A stretch of DNA of 64,000 nucleotides from Kineosporia mesophila (lineage in GTDB: Bacteria; Actinomycetota; Actinomycetes; Actinomycetales; Kineosporiaceae): contig NZ_JAJOMA010000031.1 of the NCBI RefSeq assembly GCF_021129235.1, positions 1 to 64,000 on the forward strand, in the 5' to 3' direction. Numbering within the stretch: the first letter of the stretch is position 1; the number at the start of each line of letters is the position of its first letter. Shown piece after piece: positions 40,149-63,341 of the stretch. A program made the position numbers and the translations under genes. Below the pieces are notes generated by a model. The model did no database searches. It was given only the letters and a program-made list of their open reading frames with translations, and was not told the DNA's origin.

Positions 40149-40152
40149 CCGA

Positions 40153-41400: not shown

Positions 41401-41406
41401 CGGCTG

Positions 41407-45170: not shown

Positions 45171-45281
45171 TTCGCGACGGTTCGGAAAGACCCACAAACG
45201 CAGCCATTCCCATCCGTGAATCAGGCGTTATAGTCAACTGATTATCTGTTCGCCGACAAAGATGTCAGTGGGTCGATAGAG

Positions 45282-46172: not shown

Positions 46173-46236
46173 ACCGGAACGGTGGAAGCGGTGGGGAAGG
46201 CATCCAGGCCCTCTCCACCGCTTCGGTTCGACCGCT

Positions 46237-47436: not shown

Positions 47437-48213
47437 TCAGGGCAGGTAGCGCCCGCCGTTGGGGCCCAGCGTCTGCCCGGTGACGTAGGAGGCCTCCTCC
47501 GAGACCAGGTACGCCACCGCGTAGGCGATGTCCTCGGGACGTCCCGCCCGCTTCATCGGCATCGTGGCGGCGACCTTCTCCACGTCGATCGGCCCCTCCC
47601 GCACGAGCGGTGTGTCGACGAACCCCGGGGGCACGTGGTTCACGGTGATGCCCGAACCGATGTACTCCACGGCCAGGGCCTTGGTCAGGCCGATGACACC
47701 CCCCTTGGACGCCACGTAGTGGGCCATCGCCGGGGCACCGGTCTGGGCGGAGGACGAGGAGATGTTGACGATCCGGCCCCAGCCGGCCCCCAGCATGTCG
47801 CCGATCAGGACCTGGGTGACCAGGAAGGGGCCCTTGAGATTGATCCGGATCATCCGGTCCCACTCGTCCTCGGTGAGGTCGGTGAAAGGGATGTAGTTCG
47901 TGGTCCCGGCGTTGTTCACCAGGATCGTCACCGGCCCGAGCTCGGCCCGGGTCTGCTCGGACGCTGCCACCACGGACGTGCGGTCGGCTGCGTCACCACC
48001 CACGGCCACGGCACGTCCGCCGGCTTTCTCAATCAGGGCGGCCGTCTCCTGGGCGCCTTCGAGGTTCAGGTCCCAGACGGCCACCGCGGCACCCCGGGCG
48101 GCCAGTTCGACGGCGATCCCCCGGCCGATGCCGCGGGCCCCGCCGGTCACGACAGCGTTCTTCCCGTCCAGGGACACGATTGCTCCTTTGCCTGCGCGTA
48201 CTGATTCCGTCAC
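47437..48213 (-). CDS. SDR-family oxidoreductase
   Basis: A 258-residue classical SDR. It has AVVTGGARGIGRGIAVEL, DLNLEG, ILVNNAGTTNYIPF, SSSSAQTGAPAMAHYVASKGG with the catalytic Tyr-x3-Lys, and TGQTLGPNGGRYLP at the end. An Asp-like residue after the second strand suggests NAD(H). ATG 48213 overlaps the stop of the carboxymuconolactone decarboxylase-like gene (ATGA). It is placed between HsaC-like and the BVMO unit, and the substrate is likely a hydroxyacyl or steroid intermediate. Confidence 0.88.
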   Translation of the reverse strand: MTESVRAGKGAIVSLDGKNAVVTGGARGIGRGIAVELAARGAAVAVWDLNLEGAQETAALIEKAGGRAVAVGGDAADRTSVVAASEQTRAELGPVTILVNNAGTTNYIPFTDLTEDEWDRMIRINLKGPFLVTQVLIGDMLGAGWGRIVNISSSSAQTGAPAMAHYVASKGGVIGLTKALAVEYIGSGITVNHVPPGFVDTPLVREGPIDVEKVAATMPMKRAGRPEDIAYAVAYLVSEEASYVTGQTLGPNGGRYLP

Positions 48214-48617
48214 TCGCCCAATGCCTCTCGGGTGGCCGTGCGTGCGGCTACCGCTCGCGGGAAACCGGCGTACCCGGCGGAGTGATAGATGACCTCGGCG
48301 ATGTCCTCGCGGGTGAGGCCATTGGTGAGACCGATGCGTACGTGGGTCTTCAGCTCGGTCTCGGCGCCCAGCGCGATCAGCATGGCGATCGTGATCAGGC
48401 TGCGGTCACGGGGGGCCAGCTGCTCGCGGGCCCAGAGCGAGCCCCAGACGCTGGTCGTGCCGATGTCGACGAGTTCCTCCCCGAGCTTGCCGTCACGCAG
48501 GCTGATGGGCCCGTCGGGGAAGACGCCGGGCATCGCGGCCCGCATCGCATTCTCGCCGGCTGTTCGCAGGTCCGGGCCGGGGGCCGGGGACGCCGCACTG
48601 CGTTCCTCCGTCGTCAT
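48210..48617 (-). CDS. carboxymuconolactone decarboxylase-family protein
   Basis: A 135-residue small helical protein. It has the CMD signature ELKTHVRIGLTNGLTREDIAEVIYHSAGYAGFPRA, with the Glu and His in the expected helices. The pattern lacks the C-x-x-C of AhpD, so it is not a peroxidase of that type. Members catalyse decarboxylation or lactone changes, and many remain uncharacterised. ATG 48617 is chosen because the family starts here. A copy of the 20-bp operator lies only 12 bases upstream. Confidence 0.8.
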   Translation of the reverse strand: MTTEERSAASPAPGPDLRTAGENAMRAAMPGVFPDGPISLRDGKLGEELVDIGTTSVWGSLWAREQLAPRDRSLITIAMLIALGAETELKTHVRIGLTNGLTREDIAEVIYHSAGYAGFPRAVAARTATREALGE

Positions 48618-48628
48618 GCTGGAAAAAT

Positions 48629-48648
48629 TAGACCAAGCGGTCGGTACA
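48629..48648. promoter_or_regulatory. TetR-type operator, site 1 (CMD/SDR unit)
   Basis: TAGACCAAGCGGTCGGTACA. The reverse complement aligns with the consensus TGTACCGACCGGTCGAAA, weakest in the right half. It lies 12 bases before ATG 48617. Confidence 0.65.
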
Positions 48649-48767
48649 GACAAGAGGCAAGGACCGGTCCTGCGCGAGGCGGTCCCCGTAGGCGTTGTGC
48701 CGGAGGTGATCCGAACCCCCTGGCCGTTGTCGGCGTCCACCGGCTGTTCTACGCTCACTCTGATTCG

Positions 48768-48787
48768 TAGACCGACCGGTCGAAACA
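48768..48787. promoter_or_regulatory. TetR-type operator, site 2 (BVMO)
   Basis: TAGACCGACCGGTCGAAACA contains the palindromic core GACCGACCGGTC. It stands 37 bases before the Baeyer-Villiger monooxygenase ATG. Confidence 0.85.
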
Positions 48788-48823
48788 ACACGGTCGCGTG
48801 AGTGACCGTGGTCTGGAGAAAAG

Positions 48824-50470
48824 ATGAGCGAACCGTCGAAGGTGCCGGCCGCGCAGGTGCGCGAGGAGGTCGAGGTCCTGATCATCGGGGCCGGGGTGAC
48901 CGGGCTCTACCAGTTGCAGCAGGCGCTCGAGGCAGGCCTGTCGGTGCGGCTTCTCGAGGCCGGGGGCGGCGTCGGTGGCACCTGGTACTGGAACCGTTAC
49001 CCCGAGGCCCGTTTCGACTCTGAGAGTTACTCGTACGGCTTCCTGTTCTCGGAGGAGCTGTGGCGGGAGTGGGAGTGGAGCGAGAAGTACGCCGCCCAGC
49101 CCGAGGTGGAGCGTTACTTCAACCATGTGGTCGACCGGTTCGGCCTGCGGCAGTACATCACCTTCGGCTCGAAGGTGATCTCGGCCGTGTTCGACGAGGC
49201 GAGCGGCACGTACACGGTTGGGACGCAGGGCGGTGACTTCTACCGCACCCGGTTCCTGGTTGCGGCCAGCGGAAACCTCTCGGTGCCGTTCATCCCGGCG
49301 ATCGCGGGGCGAGAGTCGTTCCGCGGCGGCCAGTACCACACCGGTCGCTGGCCTGAGGAGGGCGTGGACCTCACCGGTCAGCGGGTGGCCCAGATCGGGA
49401 CCGGCTCCAGCGGGGTGCAGATCGTGCCCGCGATCGCCGGCCAGGTGGAGCAGCTGACGGTGTACCAGATGAAGGCCGACTGGGTCACCCCGCTGAACAA
49501 CGGCCCCCTGACCGAGGACGAGAAGACCTGGATCCGGGAGAATTTCGAGGAGATCCGGCAGACGCTGAATACCTCGCCGAGCGGGTTCGCCCACGATATG
49601 AGGGGAGGAATGTCCACCGACGCCACCCCGGAGGAACATCAGGCGATGTTCGAGAAGATGTGGGCCAGCGAGGGGTTCCGCAAGCTGACCGAGACCTACT
49701 GGGACCTCCTCCTGAATTCCGAGATCAACGGCAAGTGGTGCGCGTACCTGGCCGGGAAGATCCGGTCGATCGTCAAGGACCCGGTGACCGCCGAGCGGCT
49801 GATACCGAAGGACAGCGGTTACGGCGGTCGCCGGCCCCCGTTCGGCACCGGGTACTTCGAGGCGTACAACAACCCGAACGTCGAGCTGGTGTCGCTGCCG
49901 GAGACCCCGATCCTGCGGATCACCGAGACCGGTATCGAGACCACCGAGGGCCTGCGTGAGGTCGACCTCATCATCTGGGGAACCGGCTGGGACTTCGGCA
50001 CCGGAGCGCTGAACCGGCTGGGTCTGCGCGGGCGCGAAGGGCTGGCACTGGAGGAGTACTGGTCGGCCGGCCCGCAGACCTACCTGGGGATCATGACGGC
50101 GGGCTTCCCGAACTTCTTCTTCCCCGGCGGGCCGCACGGGGCCACCGGCAACAACCCGCGGTACGCCGGCGATCAGGTGGAGTACACCACCGAGGTGATC
50201 AGGGCGGCGAAGGAGCGGGGGAGCGACGTGGTCGAGGTCGAGCCGGGAGCGCAGGATCAGTGGACGACCATGGTCAACGACCAGTCGCACCTGTCGTCGT
50301 TCCTGGACAGCAGCTACTTCTCCGGCGGCAACATCCCCGGTAAGCCGGTGAAGCAGCTGCTCAACCCGACCGGACGGCCGACGCTGCAGAAGATGATCGC
50401 GGATGACACCTCAGCGGGGCATCCGGCGCTGCGGTTCTCGAGGGCGAGCCGGTCCGGGCCGGTTTCCTGA
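48824..50470 (+). CDS. Baeyer-Villiger monooxygenase, class B flavoprotein
   Basis: A 548-residue flavoprotein. The FAD site is GAGVTG at 22-27, with GGTWYWNRYPEARFDSES following. The type I BVMO fingerprint FRGGQYHTGRWP is at about 166-177 and the NADPH-binding turn GTGSSG at 192-197. Enzymes of this group insert oxygen next to a ketone, making an ester or lactone. In steroid degraders they attack ring or side-chain ketones. Operator site 2 stands just upstream. A hairpin follows the stop, so it is probably a single-gene transcript. The precise ketone is unknown. Confidence 0.92.
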   Translation: MSEPSKVPAAQVREEVEVLIIGAGVTGLYQLQQALEAGLSVRLLEAGGGVGGTWYWNRYPEARFDSESYSYGFLFSEELWREWEWSEKYAAQPEVERYFNHVVDRFGLRQYITFGSKVISAVFDEASGTYTVGTQGGDFYRTRFLVAASGNLSVPFIPAIAGRESFRGGQYHTGRWPEEGVDLTGQRVAQIGTGSSGVQIVPAIAGQVEQLTVYQMKADWVTPLNNGPLTEDEKTWIRENFEEIRQTLNTSPSGFAHDMRGGMSTDATPEEHQAMFEKMWASEGFRKLTETYWDLLLNSEINGKWCAYLAGKIRSIVKDPVTAERLIPKDSGYGGRRPPFGTGYFEAYNNPNVELVSLPETPILRITETGIETTEGLREVDLIIWGTGWDFGTGALNRLGLRGREGLALEEYWSAGPQTYLGIMTAGFPNFFFPGGPHGATGNNPRYAGDQVEYTTEVIRAAKERGSDVVEVEPGAQDQWTTMVNDQSHLSSFLDSSYFSGGNIPGKPVKQLLNPTGRPTLQKMIADDTSAGHPALRFSRASRSGPVS

Positions 50471-50490
50471 CCGGAGCGCCTCATCCGGTG

Positions 50491-50538
50491 CCCGGGGGGC
50501 CGGCGGGCCTGACGCACAGGCCGCACCGACCCCCCGGG
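50491..50538. terminator. bidirectional hairpin between convergent genes
   Basis: CCCGGGGGG (50491-50499) pairs with CCCCCCGGG (50530-50538). Inside it a second stem, GGCCTG/CAGGCC, surrounds ACGCA. It lies between the BVMO stop and the SnoaL stop and could terminate both. Confidence 0.7.
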
Positions 50539-50553
50539 GGGGCTCCGGCCCGG

Positions 50554-50961
50554 TCAGCGGAACTGCAGCACGCGGCGGCTGAATCGCCACACGCCGTCGT
50601 CGAGCCGGAGGGTGTCCTCGTAACGGCCCACGAACGCAACGGCGAAACCGGCTTCACCGCGAGTGGTGAGGGCCAGGTCGCTGCGGGCCGAGGCGGTGTT
50701 CTCGTCCCAGTCGGTGATCAGTGTGTTGGTCACCAGGTGGACCTGTGGGGAGGCGGGCGGCCAGGCGGCGTAGGCGGCCTCGATCGCGGACCGGCCCTCG
50801 AAGGTGCCCTGGCCGGCGATCTCGGAGACACCGTCGGCGACGAACAGGCCGGCGACGTCGGCCGGGCGGTTCTCGTCGAGGGCCTGGGCGTAGGCGGCGA
50901 TGGCGGCCAGGACGCCGCTGGCAACTGCGGCCGGAACGGGGGTGCCGGGGGTCTTGGGCAT
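50554..50961 (-). CDS. SnoaL-like/NTF2-fold protein
   Basis: A 135-residue protein starting MPKTPGTPVPAAVASGVLAAI and ending with GRYEDTLRLDDGVWRFSRRVLQF. The middle has VADGVSEIAGQGTFEGRSAIEAAYAAW, typical of the SnoaL-like group. The ribosome site before ATG 50961 is AGGAG. It follows another SnoaL-like gene after 44 bases, and both are read away from operator site 3. Function may be ketosteroid-isomerase-like, but no catalytic pair is proved. Confidence 0.78.
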   Translation of the reverse strand: MPKTPGTPVPAAVASGVLAAIAAYAQALDENRPADVAGLFVADGVSEIAGQGTFEGRSAIEAAYAAWPPASPQVHLVTNTLITDWDENTASARSDLALTTRGEAGFAVAFVGRYEDTLRLDDGVWRFSRRVLQFR

Positions 50962-51005
50962 GAGGTCTCCTGCTGGTGGGCTCGGGCGGGCGATTCGGGT
51001 GGGGA

Positions 51006-51392
51006 TCAGGACTCGAAGCTGGTGACGCGGCTGCGGATCTTCCAATGGCCCTCGTCCAGTGCGTACTCGTCCTGGTACCGCCCGCGGACCTGCGGGACCC
51101 ATCCGCTGTCGGTGCGCTGGAGGAAGAGGACGTCGGCCCGGGCGGTGGCCCGGGTGTCGCTGAGGACGGTGACGTGGATGTTGGCGCCCAGGTGCAGCTG
51201 CGGCTGGGTCGGCGTCCACTGGCCGTAGGCGGCGAGCAGGGCGTCGTGGCCCTCGACGGGTTCGGCGCCGGGCAGTTTCAGGACGGCGTCCTTGGTGTAG
51301 AGCGCCACGATGTCACCGGCGCGGCCCTCGTCCTGGGCCTGGATGTGGGCGGCGATCAGGTTGCGTACAGAGGCCTCGGGGGAATCGGCCAT
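51006..51392 (-). CDS. SnoaL-like/NTF2-fold protein
   Basis: A 128-residue protein. ATG 51392 is chosen because AGGAG precedes it. It has MADSPEASVRNLIAAHIQAQD, GEPVEGHDALLAAYGQW-like centre and RGRYQDEYALDEGHWKIRSR, matching its neighbour in layout. The two genes form a pair under operator site 3. This mirrors the pair at 13.4-14.4 kb in the other catabolic operon. Confidence 0.78.
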   Translation of the reverse strand: MADSPEASVRNLIAAHIQAQDEGRAGDIVALYTKDAVLKLPGAEPVEGHDALLAAYGQWTPTQPQLHLGANIHVTVLSDTRATARADVLFLQRTDSGWVPQVRGRYQDEYALDEGHWKIRSRVTSFES

Positions 51393-51433
51393 GTCTTCTC
51401 TCCTGGGTCGGCCCTGACTCACGGAACAAACTA

Positions 51434-51453
51434 TGTTTCGACCGGTCAGTCTA
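51434..51453. promoter_or_regulatory. TetR-type operator, site 3 (SnoaL pair)
   Basis: TGTTTCGACCGGTCAGTCTA, read in reverse as TAGACTGACCGGTCGAAACA. It lies 41 bases before ATG 51392. Confidence 0.85.
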
Positions 51454-51496
51454 GAAGTCGAAAGAAGTACGACGGAAGAGGTCTGCCTCCCTTGAA

Positions 51497-51516
51497 CTTT
51501 TCGATCGGTCGGTACA
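51497..51516. promoter_or_regulatory. TetR-type operator, site 4 (cyclase)
   Basis: CTTTTCGATCGGTCGGTACA, reverse TGTACCGACCGATCGAAAAG. It lies 60 bases before GTG 51576 and 63 bases, centre to centre, from site 3. Confidence 0.85.
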
Positions 51517-51575
51517 AGAATTCACTCACGCCCGGCGCCGTCGACGACGACGGTGACCATGAAGGAGGAGCGACC

Positions 51576-52619
51576 GTGACGAAGCGGTGGAAGAAACGCC
51601 CGCCCGACTCGACCTGGGGCGACTGGGGCGAGGACGACGAGCTGGGCCGGATCAACCTCATCACTCCGGAGAAAGTGCTCCAGGGCGTCCAGGAAGTGAA
51701 GGCCGGCAAGGCTTTCGGTCTCAGCATTCCCCTGGACTACCCGGGCGGGTCCGCGCTGAACCAGCGCCGGTACCCCCCGATCACCCACCCCACCGAGGAC
51801 CTGCAGCACAAGCCCGACACGTTCTACAACGTCGTGGCCAAGGAGTCGATCGACCCCTCGTTCGTCGACGTCTGGTCGGACGACCAGGTCACCCTCTGGC
51901 TCCAGTACTCCACCCAGTGGGACGCCCTGGCCCACCAGGGGGCGCTCTTCGACGCCGACGACGACGGCGAGGCGGAACCGGTCTACTACAACGGCTTCCG
52001 GGCCCACGAGGACATCGTCGGCCCCAAGGAGGACGCCAAGGGTGACGGCAGCGGCAGCACCAGTTTCGCCCGTCACCTCGGGCTGGAGCACATGGCGGCG
52101 CACGGAGTGCAGGGCCGGGGTGTGCTGATCGACCTGGAGCACCACGTCGGCAGCGACTGGACCCCGGTGAACTACGCCACCCTGCGCGAGATCATGGCGG
52201 CCGACAAGGTCGTGGTCGAGCCCGGGGACATGGTCGTCCTGCACACCGGGTTCACCCGTCAGGTGATGGCCTGGGAGAAGAACCCGGACCCACAGAAGAT
52301 CATGGCGATGCACCCCTATCTCGACGCCTCGGACCCCGAGATCCTGCAGTGGATCATCGATTCCCAGCTGTCGGCGCTGATTGCGGACAACTACGCCGTC
52401 GAGGGGTTCCAGGCGCCCACGCCCGAGCCGCACACGCTGCTGCCGATCCATCACCTCTGCCTGTTCAAACTCGGTGTGCCGCTGGGTGAACTGTGGTGGA
52501 CCCAGGACCTGGCCGACTGGCTGCGGGCCCATCAACGCAACCGTTTCCTGCTCACGGCGCCGCCGCTGCGCCTGCCCGGCACCCAGGGCAGCCCGCTGAC
52601 CCCGGTCGCCACCGTCTGA
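51576..52619 (+). CDS. cyclase-family (kynurenine formamidase-like) hydrolase
   Basis: A 347-residue protein of the metal-dependent cyclase/formamidase family. GTG 51576 is chosen, with AAGGAGGAG before it. The family metal motif appears as QYSTQWDALAHQG, a variant of H-x-G-T-H-x-D-x-P-x-H, followed by GLEHMAAHGVQGRGVLIDLEHH and GDMVVLHTGFTR. Such enzymes hydrolyse amides or lactones; here a lactone made by the Baeyer-Villiger enzyme is a plausible substrate. Operator site 4 lies before it. The TetR gene follows after a 9-bp repeat array. Confidence 0.85.
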   Translation: MTKRWKKRPPDSTWGDWGEDDELGRINLITPEKVLQGVQEVKAGKAFGLSIPLDYPGGSALNQRRYPPITHPTEDLQHKPDTFYNVVAKESIDPSFVDVWSDDQVTLWLQYSTQWDALAHQGALFDADDDGEAEPVYYNGFRAHEDIVGPKEDAKGDGSGSTSFARHLGLEHMAAHGVQGRGVLIDLEHHVGSDWTPVNYATLREIMAADKVVVEPGDMVVLHTGFTRQVMAWEKNPDPQKIMAMHPYLDASDPEILQWIIDSQLSALIADNYAVEGFQAPTPEPHTLLPIHHLCLFKLGVPLGELWWTQDLADWLRAHQRNRFLLTAPPLRLPGTQGSPLTPVATV

Positions 52620-52667
52620 CTCGCCCGCCCGTGGCCAGGTGTGGTCCCCCGGGGAGGCCGTGCCTGA

Positions 52668-52730
52668 TCACGGGAGTCACGGGAGTCACGGGAGTCACGG
52701 GAGTCACGGGAGTCACGGGAGTCACGGGAG
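52668..52730 (+). repeat. seven tandem copies of a 9-bp unit
   Basis: TCACGGGAG is repeated seven times without error between the cyclase stop and the TetR start. The frames across it code Gly-Val-Thr runs, but the array is outside recognised genes. It is likely a slippage microsatellite. A regulatory role is possible since it lies 131 bases before the TetR start. Confidence 0.95.
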
Positions 52731-52860
52731 GTGCTCCAGCCGTCCCTGCTGACCCGATCGTGTACGGTGACCACCGAAGTTTGCTGGTATCGCTCGACCA
52801 CGCAGGACGCACCCTCCTGACGTCCGGGTGGCGGTGGACCCGGACATCAGGAGAGGTGAC

Positions 52861-53550
52861 ATGCCCGCAGCAGGCGCCGAACGGGGTAAGACCGAGCGCT
52901 ACTACCGCCAGCGCGAGAGAGTCATCGACGTCGCCGTCGAGCTGTTCTCCAAGAACGGTTACGCCAGTACCGGGGTGGCCGACATCGGCGAGGCCGCGGG
53001 CCTGGCCCGCGGTGCCCTCTACTACTACATCGGCTCGAAGGAAGCGCTGCTGGCGGAGATCCACGACCGGGTCATGGATCCGCTGCTCAGCGAGGCCGCG
53101 GCGATCGCCGAGCTGGACGTGAGCTTCGAGGTGCGGCTGCGGCTGCTGTCGGAGTCGCTCCTGTGGCAGATCATCAACCGGCACGATCACGTCTGGGTGT
53201 TCCTGCACGAGTATCACCAGATGCAGGGGGAGTACCGGGAACTGTTCCGGGACAAGCGCTCGAGGTTCGAGCAGCACATCCACGTCACGATCGCCCAGGG
53301 GCGCAAGCAGGGGCTCGTCCACGTCAAGGACATGGAACTGACCACCCTCGCCTTTTTGAACCTGCACAACTACACCTACCAGTGGCTCAGCGGCCGCCGA
53401 CCGCTGAAGGTGGAGGAACTCTCGCAGTTCTACTGCCACATCTTCCTGACCGGCATCACGAACGCCTGGCAGCAGCCGGCCGGGGCCACCAAGGAACTGC
53501 GGCTCGGGCGGACCCGGCTGCAGGCGGTCCGCAAGGCCGCCGGCAGCTGA
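52861..53550 (+). CDS. TetR-family regulator, likely controller of the 48.6-56.4 kb regulon
   Basis: A 229-residue regulator with AGGAGAGG before ATG 52861. The helix-turn-helix region reads RVIDVAVELFSKNGYASTGV and ADIGEAAGLARGALYYYIGSKEALL. The C-terminal domain (LLWQIINRHDHVWVFLHEYHQMQGE) resembles that of KstR2-like and fatty-acid-type TetR proteins that respond to CoA thioesters. It is the only TetR gene within the block bearing seven near-identical operators. I infer it binds them. CGGT-N4-ACCG upstream of itself is a weaker, unproven site. Confidence 0.85.
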   Translation: MPAAGAERGKTERYYRQRERVIDVAVELFSKNGYASTGVADIGEAAGLARGALYYYIGSKEALLAEIHDRVMDPLLSEAAAIAELDVSFEVRLRLLSESLLWQIINRHDHVWVFLHEYHQMQGEYRELFRDKRSRFEQHIHVTIAQGRKQGLVHVKDMELTTLAFLNLHNYTYQWLSGRRPLKVEELSQFYCHIFLTGITNAWQQPAGATKELRLGRTRLQAVRKAAGS

Positions 53551-53564
53551 GGACCGCACCGGCT

Positions 53565-53597
53565 GCGGGAGGACGGGTGCAGGGCCTGTCCTCCCGC
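53565..53597. terminator. bidirectional hairpin between TetR and SDR genes
   Basis: GCGGGAGGAC (53565-53574) and GTCCTCCCGC (53588-53597) form a perfect 10-bp stem with a 13-base loop in the 51-base gap between convergent genes. Confidence 0.75.
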
Positions 53598-53601
53598 CCT
53601 C

Positions 53602-54528
53602 TCACCCGCCGAACTGGTGTTTCAGGAAGGATCCGGACCAGGCCATCAGGCCGTCCGGGACGTAGTAGCCCTTCTCGTCGTTGATCGTCTCCCAGGCGCC
53701 GGCGACGTCCTCGACCGTCGCATCCCCGTCCGTGTGCACATATCCCTCGGTGGCGGCGATGAACAGGCGGGCGAAACGCCCTCCACCCGCGATGTACACC
53801 TCGCCGCTCACCGGGCAGTCCTCGTGGGCGAGGTAGGCCACCATCGGCGCGACGGCCCGGGCGGGCAGGTGCGGCTCGCCCGGTCGGGCCGGGGCGTCGT
53901 CACCGCCGAGCGGGTCGCCGCCGCCCATCCGGGTCATGGCCGCGGGTGCGATCAGGTTGACCTTGATGTTGTGTGGTTCACCGGCGATCCGGGCGCTGCG
54001 GGCCAGGCCGATGGTGCCGGCCTTGGCCGCTGCGTAGGCCTGGTTGTTGTCCAGGCCCAGGAGCCCGGTGGAGGTGGTGTGCACGATCCGCCCGTATCGC
54101 TGGCGCCGGAGGTGCGGCCAGGCGGCGCGAGTCGTGTTGTAGGTGCCGTAGAGGTGTACGGCGATATGCCGTTCCAGGTTTTCCAGAGGCATGTCGGGAA
54201 GCGATCCGTACCGCACGATGCCGGCGTTGTTCACCAGGATGTCGACGCGCCCGAAGGTGTCCAGAGCGGTCCCGACGATGGCTTCGCCCCCTTCCGGGGT
54301 GGACACGTCATGGGTGTCGGCGACTGCCTCGCCACCGGCTGCGACGATCTCGTCGGCCACGACCTGGGCGGGCCCGGTGTCCTGGCCGTCGCCCTCGATG
54401 CTGCCGCCGAGGTCGTTCACGACGACCCGGGCGCCCCGGGCGGCCAGCAGGTGCGCGTAGGCCCGGCCCAGTCCCCGGCCCGCACCGGTGACGACCGCGA
54501 CCCGGTCGTCGAAGCGGAACTCGCTCAT
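53602..54528 (-). CDS. SDR-family oxidoreductase (17-beta-HSD type 4-like)
   Basis: A 308-residue SDR. It begins MSEFRFDDRVAVVTGAGRGLGRAYAHLL, then VVVNDLGGSIEGDGQD, which is the pattern of the dehydrogenase domain of multifunctional peroxisomal-type enzymes and mycobacterial Hsd4A. NNAGIVRYGSL and YAAAKAGTIGLA carry the active site. These act on 3-hydroxyacyl-CoAs or 17-hydroxysteroids. Operator site 5 lies 47 bases upstream. The enoyl-CoA hydratase gene beyond suggests beta-oxidation of a side chain. Confidence 0.88.
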   Translation of the reverse strand: MSEFRFDDRVAVVTGAGRGLGRAYAHLLAARGARVVVNDLGGSIEGDGQDTGPAQVVADEIVAAGGEAVADTHDVSTPEGGEAIVGTALDTFGRVDILVNNAGIVRYGSLPDMPLENLERHIAVHLYGTYNTTRAAWPHLRRQRYGRIVHTTSTGLLGLDNNQAYAAAKAGTIGLARSARIAGEPHNIKVNLIAPAAMTRMGGGDPLGGDDAPARPGEPHLPARAVAPMVAYLAHEDCPVSGEVYIAGGGRFARLFIAATEGYVHTDGDATVEDVAGAWETINDEKGYYVPDGLMAWSGSFLKHQFGG

Positions 54529-54575
54529 CCTTTACTCCTGTCGTACATCATTGTGACTCAGGGTTGGGCACACGT

Positions 54576-54595
54576 TAGACCGATCGGTCAATACA
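54576..54595. promoter_or_regulatory. TetR-type operator, site 5 (SDR)
   Basis: TAGACCGATCGGTCAATACA. Core GACCGATCGGTC is a perfect palindrome. Confidence 0.85.
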
Positions 54596-54616
54596 ATCAA
54601 TACGTCCGACGGTGGT

Positions 54617-55411
54617 TCAGTCATGGCCGAAAGCGGCCTGGCCAGGTCCGTTACGGAGGAAACTGGACAGTCCCTCCTGACCGTCCCGGCTGCTGAAACA
54701 CCACTCGATCGCCTCGGCCTCCAGAGCCAGGCCGTCCTCGATCGGAAGGTCCAGCCCGGCCTGCACAGCCCGTTTGGCGTGGCGAAGGGAGAGGGGGCCC
54801 CGGGCGAACGTCAGCGCCAGGTCGAGGGCGGTCTCGAACGGGTCGGGGGCTATCCGGTCGACCAGGCCCATCTGCAAGGCCTCCTGCGCCTCCACGTGGC
54901 GTCCGGACAGGATCAGATCCTTGGCCCGGGTCAGGCCGACCACCTGGGGCAGGCGCTGGGTGCCCCCGGACCCGGGCATGATGCCCAGGGTCACCTCCGG
55001 AAGCCCGAGAACCGCATCCGGCCCGCCGATCCGGAAGTCGGCGGCCAGGGCCAGTTCGAAGCCGCCGCCGAGGGCGTACCCGCTGATGGCCGCGACGCAG
55101 ATCTGCGGCGCCGTGGCAATCAGGTGGAAGGCTCTCTGCAGGATCCGGTTGCGTCGGCCGAACTGATCGGGGGTGAGTCCGATCATCTGCTGGATGTCCG
55201 CACCGGCCGCGAAATGATGCTTCCCGCCGGTGATCACGACGGCCCGGTACCGATCGTCGGCGTGCAGGGCGAGACCGGCCTCGAGCAGTGCGTCCCACAT
55301 TCCCTGGTCCAGGGCGTTGACCGGTGGGCGGCTCAGGCTGAGCACCGCAAGTCGTTCGCTCGCGGGATGGGGTTCGAGGAGAACAGTTCCTGGTTCGGGC
55401 GTTTTCGTCAC
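54617..55411 (-). CDS. enoyl-CoA hydratase/isomerase-family protein
   Basis: A 264-residue crotonase-fold protein. The CoA-binding and oxyanion segment is HHFAAGADIQQM, and CVAAISGYALGGGFELALAADFRIG carries the first Gly-rich oxyanion strand. The Glu in GLPEVTLGIMPGSGGTQRLP corresponds to one catalytic Glu of enoyl-CoA hydratase. Such enzymes hydrate trans-2-enoyl-CoAs. Operator site 6 stands between it and the divergent SDR gene. Together with the HSD4-like SDR and the acyl-CoA dehydrogenase it makes a near-complete beta-oxidation set. Confidence 0.92.
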   Translation of the reverse strand: MTKTPEPGTVLLEPHPASERLAVLSLSRPPVNALDQGMWDALLEAGLALHADDRYRAVVITGGKHHFAAGADIQQMIGLTPDQFGRRNRILQRAFHLIATAPQICVAAISGYALGGGFELALAADFRIGGPDAVLGLPEVTLGIMPGSGGTQRLPQVVGLTRAKDLILSGRHVEAQEALQMGLVDRIAPDPFETALDLALTFARGPLSLRHAKRAVQAGLDLPIEDGLALEAEAIEWCFSSRDGQEGLSSFLRNGPGQAAFGHD

Positions 55412-55454
55412 AGCAGGACCTCCGTTTCTGCCACGGCAGCTGGCAGGATGTTAA

Positions 55455-55474
55455 TGTACCGACCGGTCGAAAAG
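55455..55474. promoter_or_regulatory. TetR-type operator, site 6 (divergent hydratase/SDR)
   Basis: TGTACCGACCGGTCGAAAAG. It could serve both directions, as it lies 44 bases from each start. Confidence 0.85.
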
Positions 55475-55517
55475 CTGACCATCGCCCGCGGCTCGCTGCC
55501 TGTACTGATGGAGAGTG

Positions 55518-56276
55518 ATGCGCATGAACGGCCGCTACGGCGATCTTGCCGGCCGCCGGGTCGTGATCACCGGCGCCGGACGCGGTCTGGGGCGCATCCT
55601 GGCCTCGGCGTTCGACGAGAACGGGGCCCGGCTGGGGCTGGTGGCCCGTTCCGCCGGGGCCCTGCAGGACGTGGCCGACGGCCTGTCCGGGGAGGCCCTG
55701 GTGCTCCCGGGCGATGTGCGTGACGCCGAGTTCAACGAGGCCGTGGCCAAGGCGATGGTGGACCGGTTCGGTGGCGTCGACGTGTGGATCTGCAACGCCG
55801 CTGTCTCGCCGGAGGTCTCGCCTGTCGTGGAGATGGAACCGGAGTCCTGGCGCCAGATCGTCGACGTGAATCTGACCGGGGCCTTCCTCGGTGCCCGGGC
55901 CGGGGCGGCGGTGATGGGGACCGGCGGCCGGATCATCGTCACCGGATCGGTGCTCGGGTCCCGGCCCCGCGCGGGCCTGTCGGCCTACGCCGCATCCAAG
56001 AGTGGGATCGAGGCCCTGGTCAAGGCTTTGGCACAGGAGGTGGGACCTCGCGCAATCACGGCCAATGCGGTGGCCCTGGGCTGGTTCGACACAGGTCTGG
56101 GGGCGCACTGGCATCGTGACGCCGAGCTCGAGGGCGACATCGTCCGGCACACCGCCCTGGGCCGGTGGGGGCACTCGGGCGACCTGGCCGGGGCCTTCCT
56201 GTTCCTGGCCTCCGAGGCGTCGGCCTACGTCACCGGAACCACGCTCACCGTCGACGGCGGCTACTCGCTGATGTGA
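55518..56276 (+). CDS. SDR-family oxidoreductase
   Basis: A 252-residue SDR. GGAG is six bases before ATG 55518. It has RVVITGAGRGLGRILASAF, ICNAAVSPEVSPVVEM in the NNAG position (here CNAA) and YAASKSGIEALVKAL with the catalytic pair. TGTTLTVDGGYSLM ends the protein. The changed NNAG segment is tolerated in some SDRs. Substrate unknown. It is the first gene after operator site 6 on the plus strand. Confidence 0.88.
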   Translation: MRMNGRYGDLAGRRVVITGAGRGLGRILASAFDENGARLGLVARSAGALQDVADGLSGEALVLPGDVRDAEFNEAVAKAMVDRFGGVDVWICNAAVSPEVSPVVEMEPESWRQIVDVNLTGAFLGARAGAAVMGTGGRIIVTGSVLGSRPRAGLSAYAASKSGIEALVKALAQEVGPRAITANAVALGWFDTGLGAHWHRDAELEGDIVRHTALGRWGHSGDLAGAFLFLASEASAYVTGTTLTVDGGYSLM

Positions 56277-56318
56277 TCCCGCCGGGGTATTGCGGTTCCA
56301 TCCATCAGCCGACACAGT

Positions 56319-56338
56319 TGTACCGATCGGTCGAAATA
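56319..56338. promoter_or_regulatory. TetR-type operator, site 7 (ADH operon)
   Basis: TGTACCGATCGGTCGAAATA. It lies 28 bases before ATG 56366 and probably controls the six genes up to 62.8 kb. Confidence 0.85.
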
Positions 56339-56365: not shown

Positions 56366-57418
56366 ATGAGGGCTCTGCGCTGGCACGCCGCCCGCGACGT
56401 GCGACTCGAGGAGATCGACCGCCCGGTGCTGCTGCCGGGAACGGCGATCGTCGAGGTGTCCCACGTCGGGCTGTGCGGGACCGACGTCCACGAGTACGCT
56501 CACGGCCCGGTCATGATCAGGTCCGGGCCGCATCCATTGGGCGGTCAGGCCCCGCCGGTCACACTGGGGCACGAGTTCAGCGGGCGGATCGCCGAGATCG
56601 ACATCGGCGAGAAGAACCTCGCGGTCGGTACGCGCGTCGTCACCGACCCGTGCCTGCGCTGCAACAACTGCCGGTGGTGCCTGCGGGGCGACTACCACGT
56701 GTGCGCCAAGGGCGGATCTCTCGGTCTGGCCGCGGACGGCGGGCTGGCCCGCTACGTGCGGGTCCCACTGATCCAGCTGCACGTCGTGCCGGACGGTGTC
56801 CCGGACCAGCACGCGGCCCTGGCCGAACCACTCGCGGTCGGCCTGCACGCCGCGGGGCGGGCCGGAGTCGAGCCCGGCGACAATGTTCTCGTCCTGGGAG
56901 CGGGCCCGATCGGCCTCGCCGCGCTCATCGGAGCACGGCTGCGCGGCGCCGGGCAGGTGTTCGTCAGCGAACCCCATCCCGCGCGGGCGAAAGTCGCTCT
57001 GGGACTGGGGGCCACCGGCGTCCTCGATCCGACCGGGACCGACGTGCGGCGTGAGTTGTTCGCCGCGACCGGCCGGATCGGGCCGGACACGGTCATCGAC
57101 GGCACCGGGCGCCCGGAGGCGATCGAGCTGGGACTGCGCAGTCTTCGCCGGGGCGGCACGCTCGCGATCGCGGGCATCTCTCCCGCCGAACTCCGCCTCG
57201 ATCTGCGACAGCTCGTGCTGTTCGAGCGGACCGTCACCGGATCACTCGGCTACAACTTCGACATCCCCCGGGTGCTGGCCCTGATGGCCGCCGGGCAGAT
57301 CGACCCCTCGCCACTGATCAGCGACACCCGTCCCCTGTCGGCGGGCGTGCAGACGCTCGAAGAACTCGCTGAGCCCAACCAGCACATCAAGGTGCTGATC
57401 ACCCCGCAGGAGCTGTGA
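56366..57418 (+). CDS. zinc-dependent alcohol dehydrogenase (2,3-butanediol/sorbitol DH-like)
   Basis: A 350-residue medium-chain dehydrogenase. The catalytic zinc site uses Cys37 in GLCGTD and His69-Glu70 in LGHEF. The structural zinc cluster is Cys99, Cys102, Cys105 and Cys113 in LRCNNCRWCLRGDYHVC. GAGPIGLAALIGARLRG is the NAD-binding turn. GTGAGGA precedes ATG 56366. Its TGA overlaps the ATG of the acyl-CoA dehydrogenase gene. The enzyme would oxidise a secondary alcohol. The start of this operon with an alcohol oxidation suggests side-chain or polyol-like substrates. Confidence 0.92.
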   Translation: MRALRWHAARDVRLEEIDRPVLLPGTAIVEVSHVGLCGTDVHEYAHGPVMIRSGPHPLGGQAPPVTLGHEFSGRIAEIDIGEKNLAVGTRVVTDPCLRCNNCRWCLRGDYHVCAKGGSLGLAADGGLARYVRVPLIQLHVVPDGVPDQHAALAEPLAVGLHAAGRAGVEPGDNVLVLGAGPIGLAALIGARLRGAGQVFVSEPHPARAKVALGLGATGVLDPTGTDVRRELFAATGRIGPDTVIDGTGRPEAIELGLRSLRRGGTLAIAGISPAELRLDLRQLVLFERTVTGSLGYNFDIPRVLALMAAGQIDPSPLISDTRPLSAGVQTLEELAEPNQHIKVLITPQEL

Positions 57419-58578
57419 TGGACTTCTCGCTCGACCCCGAGATCGTCTCCCTGAAGAAGATGGTGCGGGACTTCGCCGACCGGGAGATCGCCCCGCACGC
57501 CGCCGGCTGGTCCGAGCGGCACGAGTTCCCGGTCGAGGTATTCCACCAGCTCGGCCGGCTCGGGCTGATGGGAATGCTGCTACCCGAGCGCTGGGGCGGC
57601 GCCGAGGCCGGGCACGTGGCCTACGTGGCGGTGATGGAGGAACTGGGCCGGGCCGACCAGTCGGTGGCGGCCGCCTGGAACGCCCACTCCACCATCGCTT
57701 CTCTGCCGCTGGCGTTGTTCGGGACCGACGAGCAGAAGGAACGGTGGCTGCGGCCTCTGGCCGAGGGCCAGAAGCTGGCGGCCTTCGGTCTCACCGAACC
57801 GGACGCCGGCTCCGATGCCGCCGGCATCATCACCCGGGCGCGCAGGGCGGACGGCGGCTGGATCCTGAACGGGGCCAAGCTGTTCATCAGCAACGCCGGC
57901 ACCGCGATGACGCTCGGCGTGACCGTCCTGGCCCAGACGGGCGTGTCCGAGGCCGGGCGCAAGGAGTTCGGCGCCTTCTTCGTGCCGACGGGCACTGCTG
58001 GGTACGGACTGGGGGAGCCGCTGAAGAAACTCGGCTGGGGGGCGCTCGACACCCGCGAACTCTCCTTCACCGACTGCTTCGTCGGCGACGACCACGTGAT
58101 CGGTGACCCCCGGGCCGGGCTGACCCACTTTCTGTCGGCCCTGGATCCCGGCCGGATCAGCGTGGCCGCCCTGTCTCTCTCCCTGGCCCAGGCGGCGCTG
58201 GAGATGGGCCTGGAGTATTCCAAGGAACGGCACCAGTTCGGCCGCCCGATCAGCTCCTTTCAGGCGATCGGGCACAAGCTCGCCGACATGGCCACCGAGG
58301 TGGAGGCCGCCCGCTGGCTGGTCTACCGGGCCGCCTGGCTGGCCGACGAGGGCCTGCCGCATCGCAAGGAGGCGGCCATGGCCAAACTCTACGCCTCGGA
58401 GGTGGCCAACCGGGTGGCCAGCGCCAGCGTCCAGATCCACGGCGGGTACGGCTGGATGCGGGAGTCCCGGATCGCCCGGTTCTACTCCGACGCCAAGATT
58501 CTCGAGATCGGCGAGGGCACCAGCGAGATCCAGCGCAACATCATTTCCCGCCTGATCCTCGACGCCCCGACCCGCTGA
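57418..58578 (+). CDS. acyl-CoA dehydrogenase
   Basis: A 386-residue flavoenzyme. It has the standard EPDAGSDAAGIITRARRADGG-like middle, the C-terminal QIHGGYGWMRESRIARFYSDAKILEIGEGTSEIQ and the expected catalytic Glu region (ILEIGEGTSE). ATG 57418 overlaps the TGA of the preceding gene. It oxidises an acyl-CoA to the trans-2-enoyl-CoA, feeding the enoyl-CoA hydratase at 54.6 kb. Chain specificity cannot be read. Confidence 0.9.
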   Translation: MDFSLDPEIVSLKKMVRDFADREIAPHAAGWSERHEFPVEVFHQLGRLGLMGMLLPERWGGAEAGHVAYVAVMEELGRADQSVAAAWNAHSTIASLPLALFGTDEQKERWLRPLAEGQKLAAFGLTEPDAGSDAAGIITRARRADGGWILNGAKLFISNAGTAMTLGVTVLAQTGVSEAGRKEFGAFFVPTGTAGYGLGEPLKKLGWGALDTRELSFTDCFVGDDHVIGDPRAGLTHFLSALDPGRISVAALSLSLAQAALEMGLEYSKERHQFGRPISSFQAIGHKLADMATEVEAARWLVYRAAWLADEGLPHRKEAAMAKLYASEVANRVASASVQIHGGYGWMRESRIARFYSDAKILEIGEGTSEIQRNIISRLILDAPTR

Positions 58579-58615: not shown

Positions 58616-60163
58616 GTGGAGAATTTCGCGTCCACCCTCGACCACCACGCCGACCGCCGGCCCGACAAGGTGGTGCTCACCCACGGTGCGACCACCCGCA
58701 CGAACACTGAGCTCCTGGCCCGCGTGAACGCCCTGGCAGCAGCCCTGCGCGGCGCCGGCGTGGGGCGCGGCGACGTCGTGGCCCTGCTGCTCGCCAACGG
58801 CGTCGAGTTCCTCGAGACGCTCTATGCCGTCAACCGTCTGGGTGCCGCCTTCCTGCCGCTGAACGTGCGCCTGGCCCCGGCCGAGTGGGAGTACATCCTG
58901 GGCAACAGCGAGGCGGTGGCCTTGATCGCCGGTGCCGAGTATGTGCCCCTGGCCCCGGACCTCCCGGCGATCCGCACCCGGATTGTGGTGGGTGAGCCGG
59001 CCCCGCCCGGGTGGGAGCCCTACGAGCAGGTGCTCGGTGCCCACCACGGACGCGAGGTTCCGGTCGAGGACGTCCCCGGGTCGGCTCTGCAGCGGCTGAT
59101 GTACACGTCGGGCACGACGTCACGTCCCAAGGGCGTATGCATCACTCACGCCAACCTGCTCGCCAAGAACCTCGGTCTGATCATCGAGTTCGGGCTCACG
59201 CACCAGGACGTGACCGCGGTGGCCGGCCCGCTCTACCACGTCGGTGCCCTGGACATGGGCGGCCTGACCACCCTGCACGTGGGCGGGAGCCTGTTGCTGC
59301 AGAAGAGGTTCGACGCCCCGGGGCTGATCTGCCTGATCCAGCGGCACCGGGCCACGACCGTGTGGCTGGCCCCGGCCATGGTCAACGCGCTGCTCCAGGA
59401 TGCGTCGCTCGCCGGGGCCGACCTGAGTTCGCTGCGGGTGATCATGTCCGGCGGGGAGAAGATGCCCGAGGCCCGTCTCAAACAGATCCTCGACATCCTG
59501 CCCGGGGTCTGGTTCGCCGACGCCTACGGGCTCACCGAGACCGTCTCCAGCGACACCTTCCTGCCCCGCGAGTACATGCACGCCAAGCTCGGATCGGTCG
59601 GCAAACCCCTGGCCCAGCACCGGGTACGGGTTGCCGACGACCGCGGCGACGAACTGCCGCCGGGTTCGGTGGGGGAGATCCTGGTGCGTGGCCCGAAGGT
59701 CTTCTCCAGGTACTGGCGGGACCCGGCGGCCACGGAGAACGCTTTCGTCGGCGGCTGGTTCCGCACCGGGGACATCGGCCGGCTCGACGAGGACGGGTTC
59801 CTCTACATCGAGGACCGCAAGAAGGACATGATCGTCTCGGGTGGGGAGAACATCGCCACACCGGAGGTCGAGCGGGTGCTGTACGAGCACCCGGACATCG
59901 TCGAGGTCGCCGTCGTCGGGCACCCGGACGAGCGCTGGGGAGAGGTACCGCACGCCTTCGTCGCCCTGCGCCCCGGAGCTGTGCTGACCCCCGCCGACGT
60001 CACGGCGTTCTGCACCGGCCGGCTGGCCCGGTTCAAGATCCCGGCCTACGTCACGATCGTCGAGGCGCTCCCACGCACCGCCTCGGGCAAGGTCGTGAAG
60101 AGGGAGTTGCGCTCGATGCCACAGACCGGAACCGACCCGGGGAACGGGGAGACGCGCGCATGA
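58616..60163 (+). CDS. acyl-CoA ligase (ANL superfamily)
   Basis: A 515-residue adenylate-forming enzyme. The start is GTG 58616 after GAAGGACC. The P-loop reads YTSGTTSRPKGVCITHANL, the AMP motif is DAYGLTETVSSD, and the C-terminal catalytic Lys is in PRTASGKVVKREL. Such enzymes activate carboxylic acids to CoA thioesters; FadD-like steroid-acid ligases belong here. The stop overlaps the next ATG (ATGA). It lies between the acyl-CoA dehydrogenase and the E1 gene, so it may activate the acid that the operon degrades. Confidence 0.92.
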   Translation: MENFASTLDHHADRRPDKVVLTHGATTRTNTELLARVNALAAALRGAGVGRGDVVALLLANGVEFLETLYAVNRLGAAFLPLNVRLAPAEWEYILGNSEAVALIAGAEYVPLAPDLPAIRTRIVVGEPAPPGWEPYEQVLGAHHGREVPVEDVPGSALQRLMYTSGTTSRPKGVCITHANLLAKNLGLIIEFGLTHQDVTAVAGPLYHVGALDMGGLTTLHVGGSLLLQKRFDAPGLICLIQRHRATTVWLAPAMVNALLQDASLAGADLSSLRVIMSGGEKMPEARLKQILDILPGVWFADAYGLTETVSSDTFLPREYMHAKLGSVGKPLAQHRVRVADDRGDELPPGSVGEILVRGPKVFSRYWRDPAATENAFVGGWFRTGDIGRLDEDGFLYIEDRKKDMIVSGGENIATPEVERVLYEHPDIVEVAVVGHPDERWGEVPHAFVALRPGAVLTPADVTAFCTGRLARFKIPAYVTIVEALPRTASGKVVKRELRSMPQTGTDPGNGETRA

Positions 60164-62166
60164 GCACTCTGGAACACCCGGCCGGGCCGGCGGCCGCCGC
60201 CGTGAGTGCCGAGGACCTGCTCGAGATGTACCGCCGCATGGTCACGATCCGCCTCTTCGAGCAATCGGCGTCGAGACTGTACGCACAGAGCGAGGTCCCG
60301 GGCTTCCTGCACCTGTCGATCGGGCAGGAGGCCACCGCCGTCGGGGCGTGCTGGAACCTGCGCCGCAGCGACGGCATCACCTCCACCCACCGCGGCCACG
60401 GACACTGCCTGGCCAAGGGCCTGGACCTCACCTCGATGTTCGCCGAGCTGATGGGCCGCGAGGGCGGTACCTGCCAGGGGCGCGGCGGCTCCATGCACAT
60501 CGCCGACCCGGGTCTGGGCATCTTCGGTGCCAACGGCATCGTCGGGGCCGGCCTGCCCATCGTCACCGGTGCCGCCACCGCGGCGAAACTGCGCGGCGAC
60601 GGGGGAGTGGCCGTCGGCTTCTTCGGTGACGGAGCCGTGGCCCAGGGCATGTTCCACGAGTCGGTCAACCTGGCGGCGGTCTGGGACCTGCCGGTGGTGT
60701 TCTTCTGCGAGAACAACCACTACTCGGAGTTCTCCCGGGAGCAGGACCAGCACCGGGCGGGCCTCGCCGCCCGGGCCGCGGGCTACGGGATCCGTTACGA
60801 AGCCGTCGACGGCAACGACGTCGTGGCCGTCGCCGAGCTGATGGGCGGCCTGGTGGAGGGCCTGCGCCGCGGTGAGGGCCCGGTGCTGGTCGAGGCGGAC
60901 ACCTACCGCTGGCACGGGCACTACGAGGGTGACCCGCTCCGTTACCGCACCAGCGACGAACTCGACGAGGCGAAGCTCCGGGACCCGCTCCTGATCGCCC
61001 GGGCCCGGCTCGCGGAACTGGGCACCCCGCCCGGGACGCTGGACGACGTGGACGCATCGGTCGCCGCCGACGTCGAGGCCGCGATCGAGGCGGCCCGCAG
61101 GTCGCCCCTGCCCGACCCGGCGACGATCTTCGATCACGTCTGGGTCGAGGAGGAGGACCCGGTGGAACCGGAACCCGAGCAGGGGGAACGGTTCCGGATG
61201 ATGGACGCCGTACGTGAGGCGCTCACCCTGGAGATGGAACGCGACGAGCGGGTCTACGCCGCCGGGATCGACGTCGGCGAGGGCGGGAACGTCTTCGCCC
61301 TGTTCCGGGGCATGACCGAGCAGTTCCCCGGCCGGATGCTCGACACCCCCATCTCGGAGTCGGCGATCGTCGGCAGCGCCGTCGGGGCCGCGATGGCGGG
61401 AATGCGGCCCGTCGTCGAGATCATGTACATGGACTTCATCGGGGTCTGCCTGGACGCCCTGATGAACCAGGCGGCCAAGCTGCGGTTCATGACCGGGGGC
61501 CGGGCCGCACTGCCCCTGGTCGTCCGCACCCAGTTCGGCGCCGGCCGCTCCTCCGGCAGCCAGCACTCCCAGAGCCTGGAGGCGATGCTGGCCCACATCC
61601 CCGGGCTGACCGTGGTGATGCCCTCCGGCCCGGTGGAGGCGTACGGGCTGCTGCGGGCCGCGATCCAGAGCCCCAACCCGGTCGTCTTCGTCGAGAACCG
61701 GCTCCAGTACGGTCTGAAGGACGCCCGTCCGCAGGCCGACTACATCATCCCGCTCGGCCGGGCCCGGATCGTGCGCCCGGGCCGGGACATCACCGTGGTC
61801 ACTTACTCCCGGATGCTCCAGGAGGTCGTCGCCGCGGCGGAAGAGGTCGCCGGTGACGGCATCGACGTCGAGGTCGTCGACCTGCGAACCATCTCGCCCC
61901 TGGACCGGGACACGATCCTGACCTCGCTGAAGAAGACCCGCAGGCTGATGGTCGCCCACGAGGGGGTGCAGGACTTCGGGGTCGGTGCGGAGATCGCGGC
62001 GCTGGCCGCCAACGAGGGTTTCTGGCACCTGGACGCCCCGGTGGTACGGATCGCCCCACCCGCCATGCCGGTGCCCTACTCGCCGTCGCTGGAGAAGGCC
62101 TGGCTGCCGGACCGGGTGGTCGTCGCGGATGCGCTGCGGCGCCTGGCGGAGGTCGGTCCCCGATGA
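60160..62166 (+). CDS. fused E1 alpha-beta 2-oxoacid/acetoin dehydrogenase (thiamine pyrophosphate)
   Basis: A 668-residue protein fusing the two E1 subunits. The alpha part (to about 330) has STHRGHGHCLAKG and the TPP motif GDG (156-158) ... NN (185-186). The beta part (from about 345) has MMDAVREALTLEMERDERVYA, DTPISESAIVGSAVGAA and PSGPVEAYGLLRAAI. Normally alpha and beta are separate and work with a lipoyl E2 and E3. E1 decarboxylates pyruvate, 2-oxoisovalerate or acetoin. ATG 60160 overlaps the ligase stop. The adjacent E2-like gene lacks a lipoyl domain, and no E3 is in the window. Confidence 0.88.
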   Translation: MSTLEHPAGPAAAAVSAEDLLEMYRRMVTIRLFEQSASRLYAQSEVPGFLHLSIGQEATAVGACWNLRRSDGITSTHRGHGHCLAKGLDLTSMFAELMGREGGTCQGRGGSMHIADPGLGIFGANGIVGAGLPIVTGAATAAKLRGDGGVAVGFFGDGAVAQGMFHESVNLAAVWDLPVVFFCENNHYSEFSREQDQHRAGLAARAAGYGIRYEAVDGNDVVAVAELMGGLVEGLRRGEGPVLVEADTYRWHGHYEGDPLRYRTSDELDEAKLRDPLLIARARLAELGTPPGTLDDVDASVAADVEAAIEAARRSPLPDPATIFDHVWVEEEDPVEPEPEQGERFRMMDAVREALTLEMERDERVYAAGIDVGEGGNVFALFRGMTEQFPGRMLDTPISESAIVGSAVGAAMAGMRPVVEIMYMDFIGVCLDALMNQAAKLRFMTGGRAALPLVVRTQFGAGRSSGSQHSQSLEAMLAHIPGLTVVMPSGPVEAYGLLRAAIQSPNPVVFVENRLQYGLKDARPQADYIIPLGRARIVRPGRDITVVTYSRMLQEVVAAAEEVAGDGIDVEVVDLRTISPLDRDTILTSLKKTRRLMVAHEGVQDFGVGAEIAALAANEGFWHLDAPVVRIAPPAMPVPYSPSLEKAWLPDRVVVADALRRLAEVGPR

Positions 62167-62834: not shown

Positions 62835-63341
62835 CGGGACCTGGATCAGGAGTCGGCCCCGGCGGATGACCTCCGCCGGACCGCGCTGCTGCTGCAGCAC
62901 CCGGATCAGCTCGACCTGCTGCGGCGCCGTTCGGACGACGAGAAGTTCGTCGCCGGGGCGGTCGAGGAGTTGCTGCGGTACCTGTCGATCCCGCATCTGC
63001 TGGCCCGACGGGTGGCGATCGAGGACGTCGAGATCGAGGGGCAGCGAATCAGGGCCGGTGAGGGCGTCATCACCGCGCTGCCGGCGGCCAACGGGGATCC
63101 GGCCGTCTTCCCCGATCCGGGCCGGCTGGACCTGACGCGCAGGGCGTCGGGGCATCTGGCCTTCGGATGGGGACCTCACCAGTGTGTGGGTCAGCAACTG
63201 GCCCGGATCGAGCCGCAGGTCGTCTTCAGCACGTTGTTCCGGCGCCTCCCTGACCTGGCCCTGGCCTGCGATCCGCAGGATCTGCAGTTCACGGAGGACT
63301 CGCAGGCTTACGGCATTCACGAACTGCCGATCACCTGGTGA
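62835..63341 (+). pseudogene. cytochrome P450, 3' half only
   Basis: The frame opens directly after the stop of the E2-like gene and lacks the first 240 or so residues. It starts in the I/J-helix region (ALLLQHPDQLDLLRRRS), has the K-helix EELLRYLSIPHLLARRV and the heme site FGWGPHQCVGQQLAR, and ends HELPITW. It is closely related to the P450 encoded head-on at 63395. Without the N-terminal half it cannot fold as an enzyme. It may have arisen by an inverted partial duplication. Confidence 0.88.

Follow-up and report, generated by a model that had tools for sequence, protein, structure and literature searches.

A candidate TetR-family regulon with a conserved operator in a catabolic gene cluster of Kineosporia mesophila and other actinobacteria

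The window analysed here, a stretch of 64,000 nucleotides from Kineosporia mesophila (GCF_021129235.1, contig NZ_JAJOMA010000031.1, termed C25 in this analysis), contains a group of oxidoreductase and acyl-CoA genes that are preceded by near-identical sites and surround a gene for a TetR-family regulator at 52861 (Table 1). This raises the question of whether the sites are operators of a single regulator and, if so, which regulator reads them and which genes it controls. A first-pass annotation had described seven such sites, and all seven are present: a position weight matrix (PWM) built from 33 sites of related loci in other genera (L017-L025) scores them at 17.5-28.9, and nothing else in the window reaches 10. 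Accordingly, the Hsa-like units lack a match of at least 10 with this PWM, as the annotation had stated. Five of its site coordinates are as given and two are shifted by 2 bp (51436 and 51499 instead of 51434 and 51497), and the distances to the start codons, described as 12-60 bases, are read here as 11-59 bp. The seven sites, aligned on GACCGAYCGGTC, have a common extent of about 22 bp that consists of TNNACCGAYCGGTNNA and AT-rich edges.

Table 1. Candidate operators and genes of the proposed regulon (window positions unless a contig is named; gaps are from site to start codon)
Feature	Position	Strand	Remarks
Operator 1	48629..48646	-	before CMD/SDR unit, gap 11 bp; TTGTCT and TAATTT flank site (17-bp spacer)
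Operator 2	48768..48785	+	before BVMO, gap 38 bp
Operator 3	51436..51453	-	before SnoaL-like pair, gap 43 bp
Operator 4	51499..51516	+	before cyclase, gap 59 bp; perhaps also TetR (next gene, same strand)
Operator 5	54576..54593	-	before HSD4-like SDR, gap 47 bp; TTGATT and TAACGT flank site (17-bp spacer)
Operator 6	55455..55472	.	gap of divergent ECH (-), 43 bp, and SDR (+), 42 bp
Operator 7	56319..56336	+	before ADH-ACAD-CoA ligase-E1 row, gap 29 bp
Extra operator	C25:66165	+	PWM 21.9; about 2.2 kb beyond window end
Weaker extra operator	C25:66202	-	PWM 13.5; about 2.2 kb beyond window end
paaA-paaZ site	L054 2296-2317 = contig C8, about 19295-19316		off-cluster
SDR oxidoreductase	47437..48213	-
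Carboxymuconolactone decarboxylase-like protein (CMD)	48210..48617	-
Baeyer-Villiger monooxygenase (BVMO)	48824..50470	+	nearest solved structures include phenylacetone and steroid monooxygenases
SnoaL/NTF2-like protein	50554..50961	-
SnoaL/NTF2-like protein	51006..51392	-
Cyclase-family protein	51576..52619	+	63-78% identical in related clusters
TetR-family regulator, proposed repressor	52861..53550	+	TetR_N and TetR_C_24
HSD4-like SDR	53602..54528	-
Enoyl-CoA hydratase family protein (ECH)	54617..55411	-
SDR oxidoreductase	55515..56276	+
Zinc alcohol dehydrogenase (ADH)	56366..57418	+
Acyl-CoA dehydrogenase (ACAD)	57415..58578	+
Acyl-CoA ligase	58616..60163	+
Fused E1 alpha/beta 2-oxoacid dehydrogenase	60166..62166	+

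The core GACCGNNCGGTC, which had been proposed as the defining element, did not hold as such: it is exact at only two of the seven sites and, with up to one mismatch, occurs 17 times in the window compared with 12.1 expected matches; being at background, it was not used as evidence. The longer pattern TGTACCGACCGGTCGAAA with up to three mismatches has five matches in the window versus 0.06 expected, and the significance resides in the site of 18-22 bp rather than in the bare core. A symmetric PWM derived from the seven sites scores these at 19.6-29.5; when each site is left out in turn, the site at 48629 is the most divergent (11.6), and the other six reach 19.2-25.9. Outside this set, the highest score that the window PWM gives to a non-overlapping position in the window is 8.9, and a first-order Markov null yields 0.27 matches per 64 kb at a score of at least 14.

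The whole genome (7.78 Mb) was searched with patterns. TGTACCGAYCGGTCGAAA with up to three mismatches has nine matches, five of which lie in the cluster. The degenerate consensus TRKACYRABCGRTCRRWA has eight exact matches, all of them on the window's contig, namely the seven sites and C25:66165; four further matches have one mismatch, one of which is C25:66202, and up to two mismatches give 60 matches versus 22 for the reversed-pattern control. The 11-mer ACCGAYCGGTC is less selective (26 rows versus 12 for the reversed control, five on the window's contig). The pair at C25:66165 and C25:66202 is located between a ferredoxin-reductase/P450 pair, whose P450 has CYP105Q4 as its nearest solved relative, and a peptide-type ABC transporter operon. 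The set of candidate sites thus comprises nine on this contig and reaches past the window end; the regulon extent drawn in the first-pass annotation holds for the units of the window and is incomplete, since the P450/ferredoxin-reductase unit and the ABC uptake operon just outside also carry sites. At 62970-63341 (+), a 123-aa C-terminal P450 piece resembles the end of the adjoining full P450 on the minus strand and looks like a partial duplicate.

In the genome scan that had been suggested as a check, exact consensus matches are confined to this contig. Among the loci scored, those off the cluster with at least 17 by the window PWM speak against full exclusivity: contig C8 has a strong site between paaA and paaZ, to which the window PWM gives 21.6 and that of the relatives 24.7, and three matches are internal to ORFs on C18, C3 and C2 (20.8, 19.0 and 17.9 with the window PWM). 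Nine of the 11 off-cluster sites whose gene position was checked fall within called ORFs, a count that leaves aside C12:171011, C20:52985 and other two-mismatch matches; the remaining two are the paaA-paaZ site and one on C38, which adjoins a gene whose translation reads as TetR-like and which has no NCBIfam match at 1e-20. The paaA-paaZ site points to an operator type in common with phenylacetate control.

The protein encoded at 52861 combines an N-terminal helix-turn-helix domain (PF00440, 57.5 bits, cut-off 24) with a TetR_C_24 ligand-binding core (PF17932, 69 bits, cut-off 26.4), and its predicted structure has a mean pLDDT of 89.4. The nearest solved homologue by sequence is PfmR (E 1.5e-18), which is also the best fold match (3vpr, rank 1, TMt 0.90, about 26% identical). 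An alignment of 26 homologues revealed that the recognition-helix residues G51, A52, L53, Y54, I57 and K60 are invariant. The protein scores below the cut-offs of two NCBIfam equivalogs, far below for KstR (23.9 bits against 280) and with 49.6 bits against 200 for FadR. The TetR gene starts 241 bp after the cyclase gene on the same strand, and no site directly precedes it in the window. The gap between the two genes contains a tandem 9-bp repeat, GGGAGTCAC, in six copies (window 52672-52725).

At an E-value of 1e-20, the 52861 TetR has no match in 57 other genomes, five of which are of the same genus. A scan of named genomes, covering close relatives only, gave 11 loci (L017-L027) from Paractinoplanes, Blastococcus, two Streptomyces, Trujillonella, three Nocardia, Amycolatopsis, Aeromicrobium and Pseudonocardia, two of which run into a contig end. 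BVMO, the SnoaL pair, cyclase, TetR, HSD4, ECH and SDR are kept together in most of the longer loci among these 11, and ADH, ACAD, ligase and E1 are also present in three (L017, L018 and L020); L026 and L027 are without the cluster. The window PWM has 33 matches of at least 18 in all nine loci whose TetR is 64-73% identical, with a null mean of 0.1. In these nine loci, 38 of 40 sites scoring at least 13 are located within about 250 bp upstream of matched genes, including those for ferredoxin reductase, P450 and ABC transporter; of the two exceptions, one is inside ECH and one follows a P450 gene. No site of at least 16 is present in L026, an Aeromicrobium metagenome-assembled genome with a 60% identical TetR, the same recognition helix and an adjoining HSD4 gene, or in L027 (TetR 39%). 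In Nocardia macrotermitis (L025, 18451-19092), a second TetR of 41% identity has its own nearby sites.

A class-wide survey of 394 genomes, including that of the window, at a TetR threshold of 1e-25 revealed matches in 15 other genomes, which are 33-42% identical in the survey and 34-43% in the alignment of homologues. The loci of these distant homologues contain 34 sites of at least 18 in 12 of 15 cases, compared with a null mean of 0.05, and lowering the threshold to 16 gives 38 sites in 14 of 15; three have no site of at least 18, and one of them, L115, none of at least 16. Nine of the 15 loci belong to a single family, within which seven share a genus, and the 15 therefore do not count as 15 independent cases. 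In seven loci (L106-L112), the cyclase and TetR genes are divergent and have a site in their common gap. The gene set is also found on the Streptomyces plasmid NZ_CP108236.1 (L117) together with a TetR of 47% identity and seven matches of at least 12, four of which reach at least 16 and one weak one of which is inside a gene. On this plasmid, the upper pathway adjoins a lower pathway (FAD-binding protein, DmpG, acetaldehyde dehydrogenase, VOC protein, IclR). That the sites are mere chance similarities in GC-rich intergenic DNA, for which the background frequency of the short core might speak, has a vanishingly small probability; the null means of 0.1 and 0.05 compare with 33 and 34 matches, which refutes this reading, and the independent motif of the relatives recovers only the seven.

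Two control sets were used: 21 loci around lower-ranking HSD4 homologues, taken from genomes where the TetR has no match at 1e-25, and seven loci of the genome's own 14 TetR paralogues. None of either set has a site of at least 18, with control flanks that are shorter than those of the distant homologues (81 and 24 kb in all versus 253 kb). As the relatives' loci had been chosen by the TetR itself, HSD4 was used as query for a check: the eight best loci besides the window's own all have a site (16.3-26.9), and 21 lower loci have none of at least 13. Seven of the eight genomes with a site already belong to the 15 found with the TetR, making this test only partly independent. The joint recurrence of TetR, operator and gene set in other actinobacteria would mark a common breakdown pathway.

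The operators could be real and belong to another regulator, either a different TetR of this genome or the IclR at 45282. Besides the 52861 protein, the genome encodes 14 TetR matches to it (E 1e-5 or better). Similar sequences are bound by related TetR proteins, PfmR among them, and an IclR gene adjoins the cluster in L023 and on the plasmid L117. We consider this unlikely: the best own paralogue is only 32% identical and the seven paralogue loci scanned, of 14, are devoid of sites, the sites track the clade of the 52861 TetR across genera and occupy the TetR-cyclase gap, and the IclR gene is matched in just one of the 11 loci L017-L027. The seven window sites and the two beyond very probably belong to the 52861 TetR, as judged from sequence comparison. 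The proposal of the first-pass annotation, one block under one regulator, probably this TetR, is supported by the co-occurrence of sites and homologues, the sites in the TetR-cyclase gap, the PfmR operator and the contig-confined exact matches.

How the TetR might act is suggested by the surroundings of the sites. Bacterial promoters of the hexamer type follow the consensus TTGNNN/TANNNT. The arrangement TTGNNN-N16..19-TANNNT spans the operator in 24 of 50 sites, whereas a flank-shuffled null gave 1.75 with a maximum of 6 in 300; the other 26, including five of the seven window sites, are without such a promoter. In 23 of the 24 cases, a matched gene lies downstream in that direction, and at L025 3743 there is only an unidentified ORF. 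Two layouts occur, with the operator either in the spacer (CMD, HSD4, FdR/P450) or over the -35 element (cyclase). Conservation falls beyond about 13 bp from the site centre, with small peaks at 16-17, and therefore does not reflect general DNA similarity. The hexamers spanning the operator argue for repression by occlusion. Alternatively, the 52861 TetR could be an activator, or the operators could be common to a PaaR-like regulator, resulting in cross-regulation with phenylacetate catabolism. The paaA-paaZ site is of similar strength and has a TetR gene 4-5 kb away, and the name of PfmR refers to phenylacetate and fatty-acid genes (PMC7022988). However, at the sites with promoter-like hexamers, the operator lies over these or between them, as is typical of repression, and the outer bases of the paa site deviate, so that we regard this alternative as rather improbable.

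It is highly likely that the 52861 TetR is a pathway-specific repressor of the site-bearing units and is released by an intermediate of the pathway. The computed observations are the sites and how they are conserved, the link to the TetR clade and the promoter geometry at about half of the sites; binding by the 52861 protein and repression are inferred. A dimer of this TetR would bind TNNACCGAYCGGTNNA-like operators in or beside promoters, thereby excluding RNA polymerase from the CMD/SDR, BVMO, SnoaL, cyclase(-TetR), HSD4-like SDR, ECH and SDR units; the ADH-ACAD-ligase-E1 unit and, beyond the window, the P450/ferredoxin-reductase and ABC-transporter units would also be shut. As the window's TetR gene lacks a site of its own, autoregulation in this genome would run through the cyclase promoter. 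The intermediate that would then release the repressor is most likely a CoA thioester, produced by the 58616 ligase. This inducer class is proposed because the fold matches AibR and FadR bind acyl-CoA and KstR2 is near; by analogy, the inducer is probably an acyl-CoA. The widened reading stands, with one regulator, nine candidate sites on the contig and a regulon that is kept in several genera.

On balance, it seems probable that the genes form an undescribed catabolic regulon, present across several actinobacterial families and in a Streptomyces plasmid copy, for the breakdown of an alicyclic natural product by ABC uptake, P450, Baeyer-Villiger oxidation, CoA activation and beta-oxidation. 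A single regulator/operator pair, preserved down to about 35% protein identity, would hold it together and, at part of the promoters, form a composite operator-promoter cassette (by eye, TTGATTGTACCGACCGATTGGTCTAANNT). A literature search on the gene set and the operator found no paper on this cluster. A bicyclic terpenoid or steroid-like substrate would fit the adjoining KstD/Hsa-like ring genes. At 37928-47256, these genes stay under the cut-offs of the steroid-enzyme models in NCBIfam (HsaA 380.5 of 450, HsaC 34.6 of 450, KstD 443.8 of 789), and the ring substrate may therefore not be a classical sterol. Geosmin was considered as substrate and dropped as a guess that the literature search did not support. 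The Rhizobium plasmid NZ_CP050304.1 (L118) encodes a BVMO of 55% identity and a similar gene set (P450, ferredoxin, E1, ECH, ACAD, GH3 glycosidase). The stretch read contains neither an annotated TetR nor a site of at least 16; this plasmid may point to a plant glycoside as the substrate. The computed regulon provides a testable operator for an uncharacterised pathway: the site lets pathway genes be delimited in other genomes, not by distance alone, and operator release is a ready assay for the inducer and hence the substrate.

Among known systems, KstR2 (PDB 4w1u, 4w97), assigned by title to cholesterol metabolism, has the TetR fold and is among the top matches, but is only 23% identical to the 52861 TetR. 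The ligand of KstR2 is a CoA thioester, and its operator is of another type. AibR and Bacillus FadR are also fold matches, and their structures contain isovaleryl-CoA or stearoyl-CoA, which hints at the class of ligand; however, they are 20-22% identical and serve other pathways. Similar operators are those of PfmR (TTHB023) of Thermus thermophilus HB8, which is described as a repressor of several dispersed promoters, with sites including CTTACCGACCGGTTGG, CCTACCGACCGGTCGG and ATGACCGGTCAGTCAG bound in vitro with a KD of 0.3-7 nM and one site of the same shape bound weakly, at 836 nM (PMC7022988). The window sites agree with printed TTHB023 sites at 11-13 of 16 bases. Six of the seven are within two mismatches of the published consensus TACCGACCGNTNGGT, the site at 48629 exactly, and the window scan with it returned eight rows, one in coding DNA, where 1.8 would be expected; the 51436 site does not fit the published consensus TACCGACCGNTNGGTN. 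In Thermus, PfmR is tied to phenylacetate and fatty-acid genes and has sites before its own gene (PMC7022988), whereas here a P450/BVMO cluster is concerned and the window's TetR gene is without a site. An orthologue of PfmR was ruled out by the 26% identity and the differing gene set. The regulon nevertheless resembles the PfmR-like TetR type, and its kind is known, as that of a local TetR repressor.
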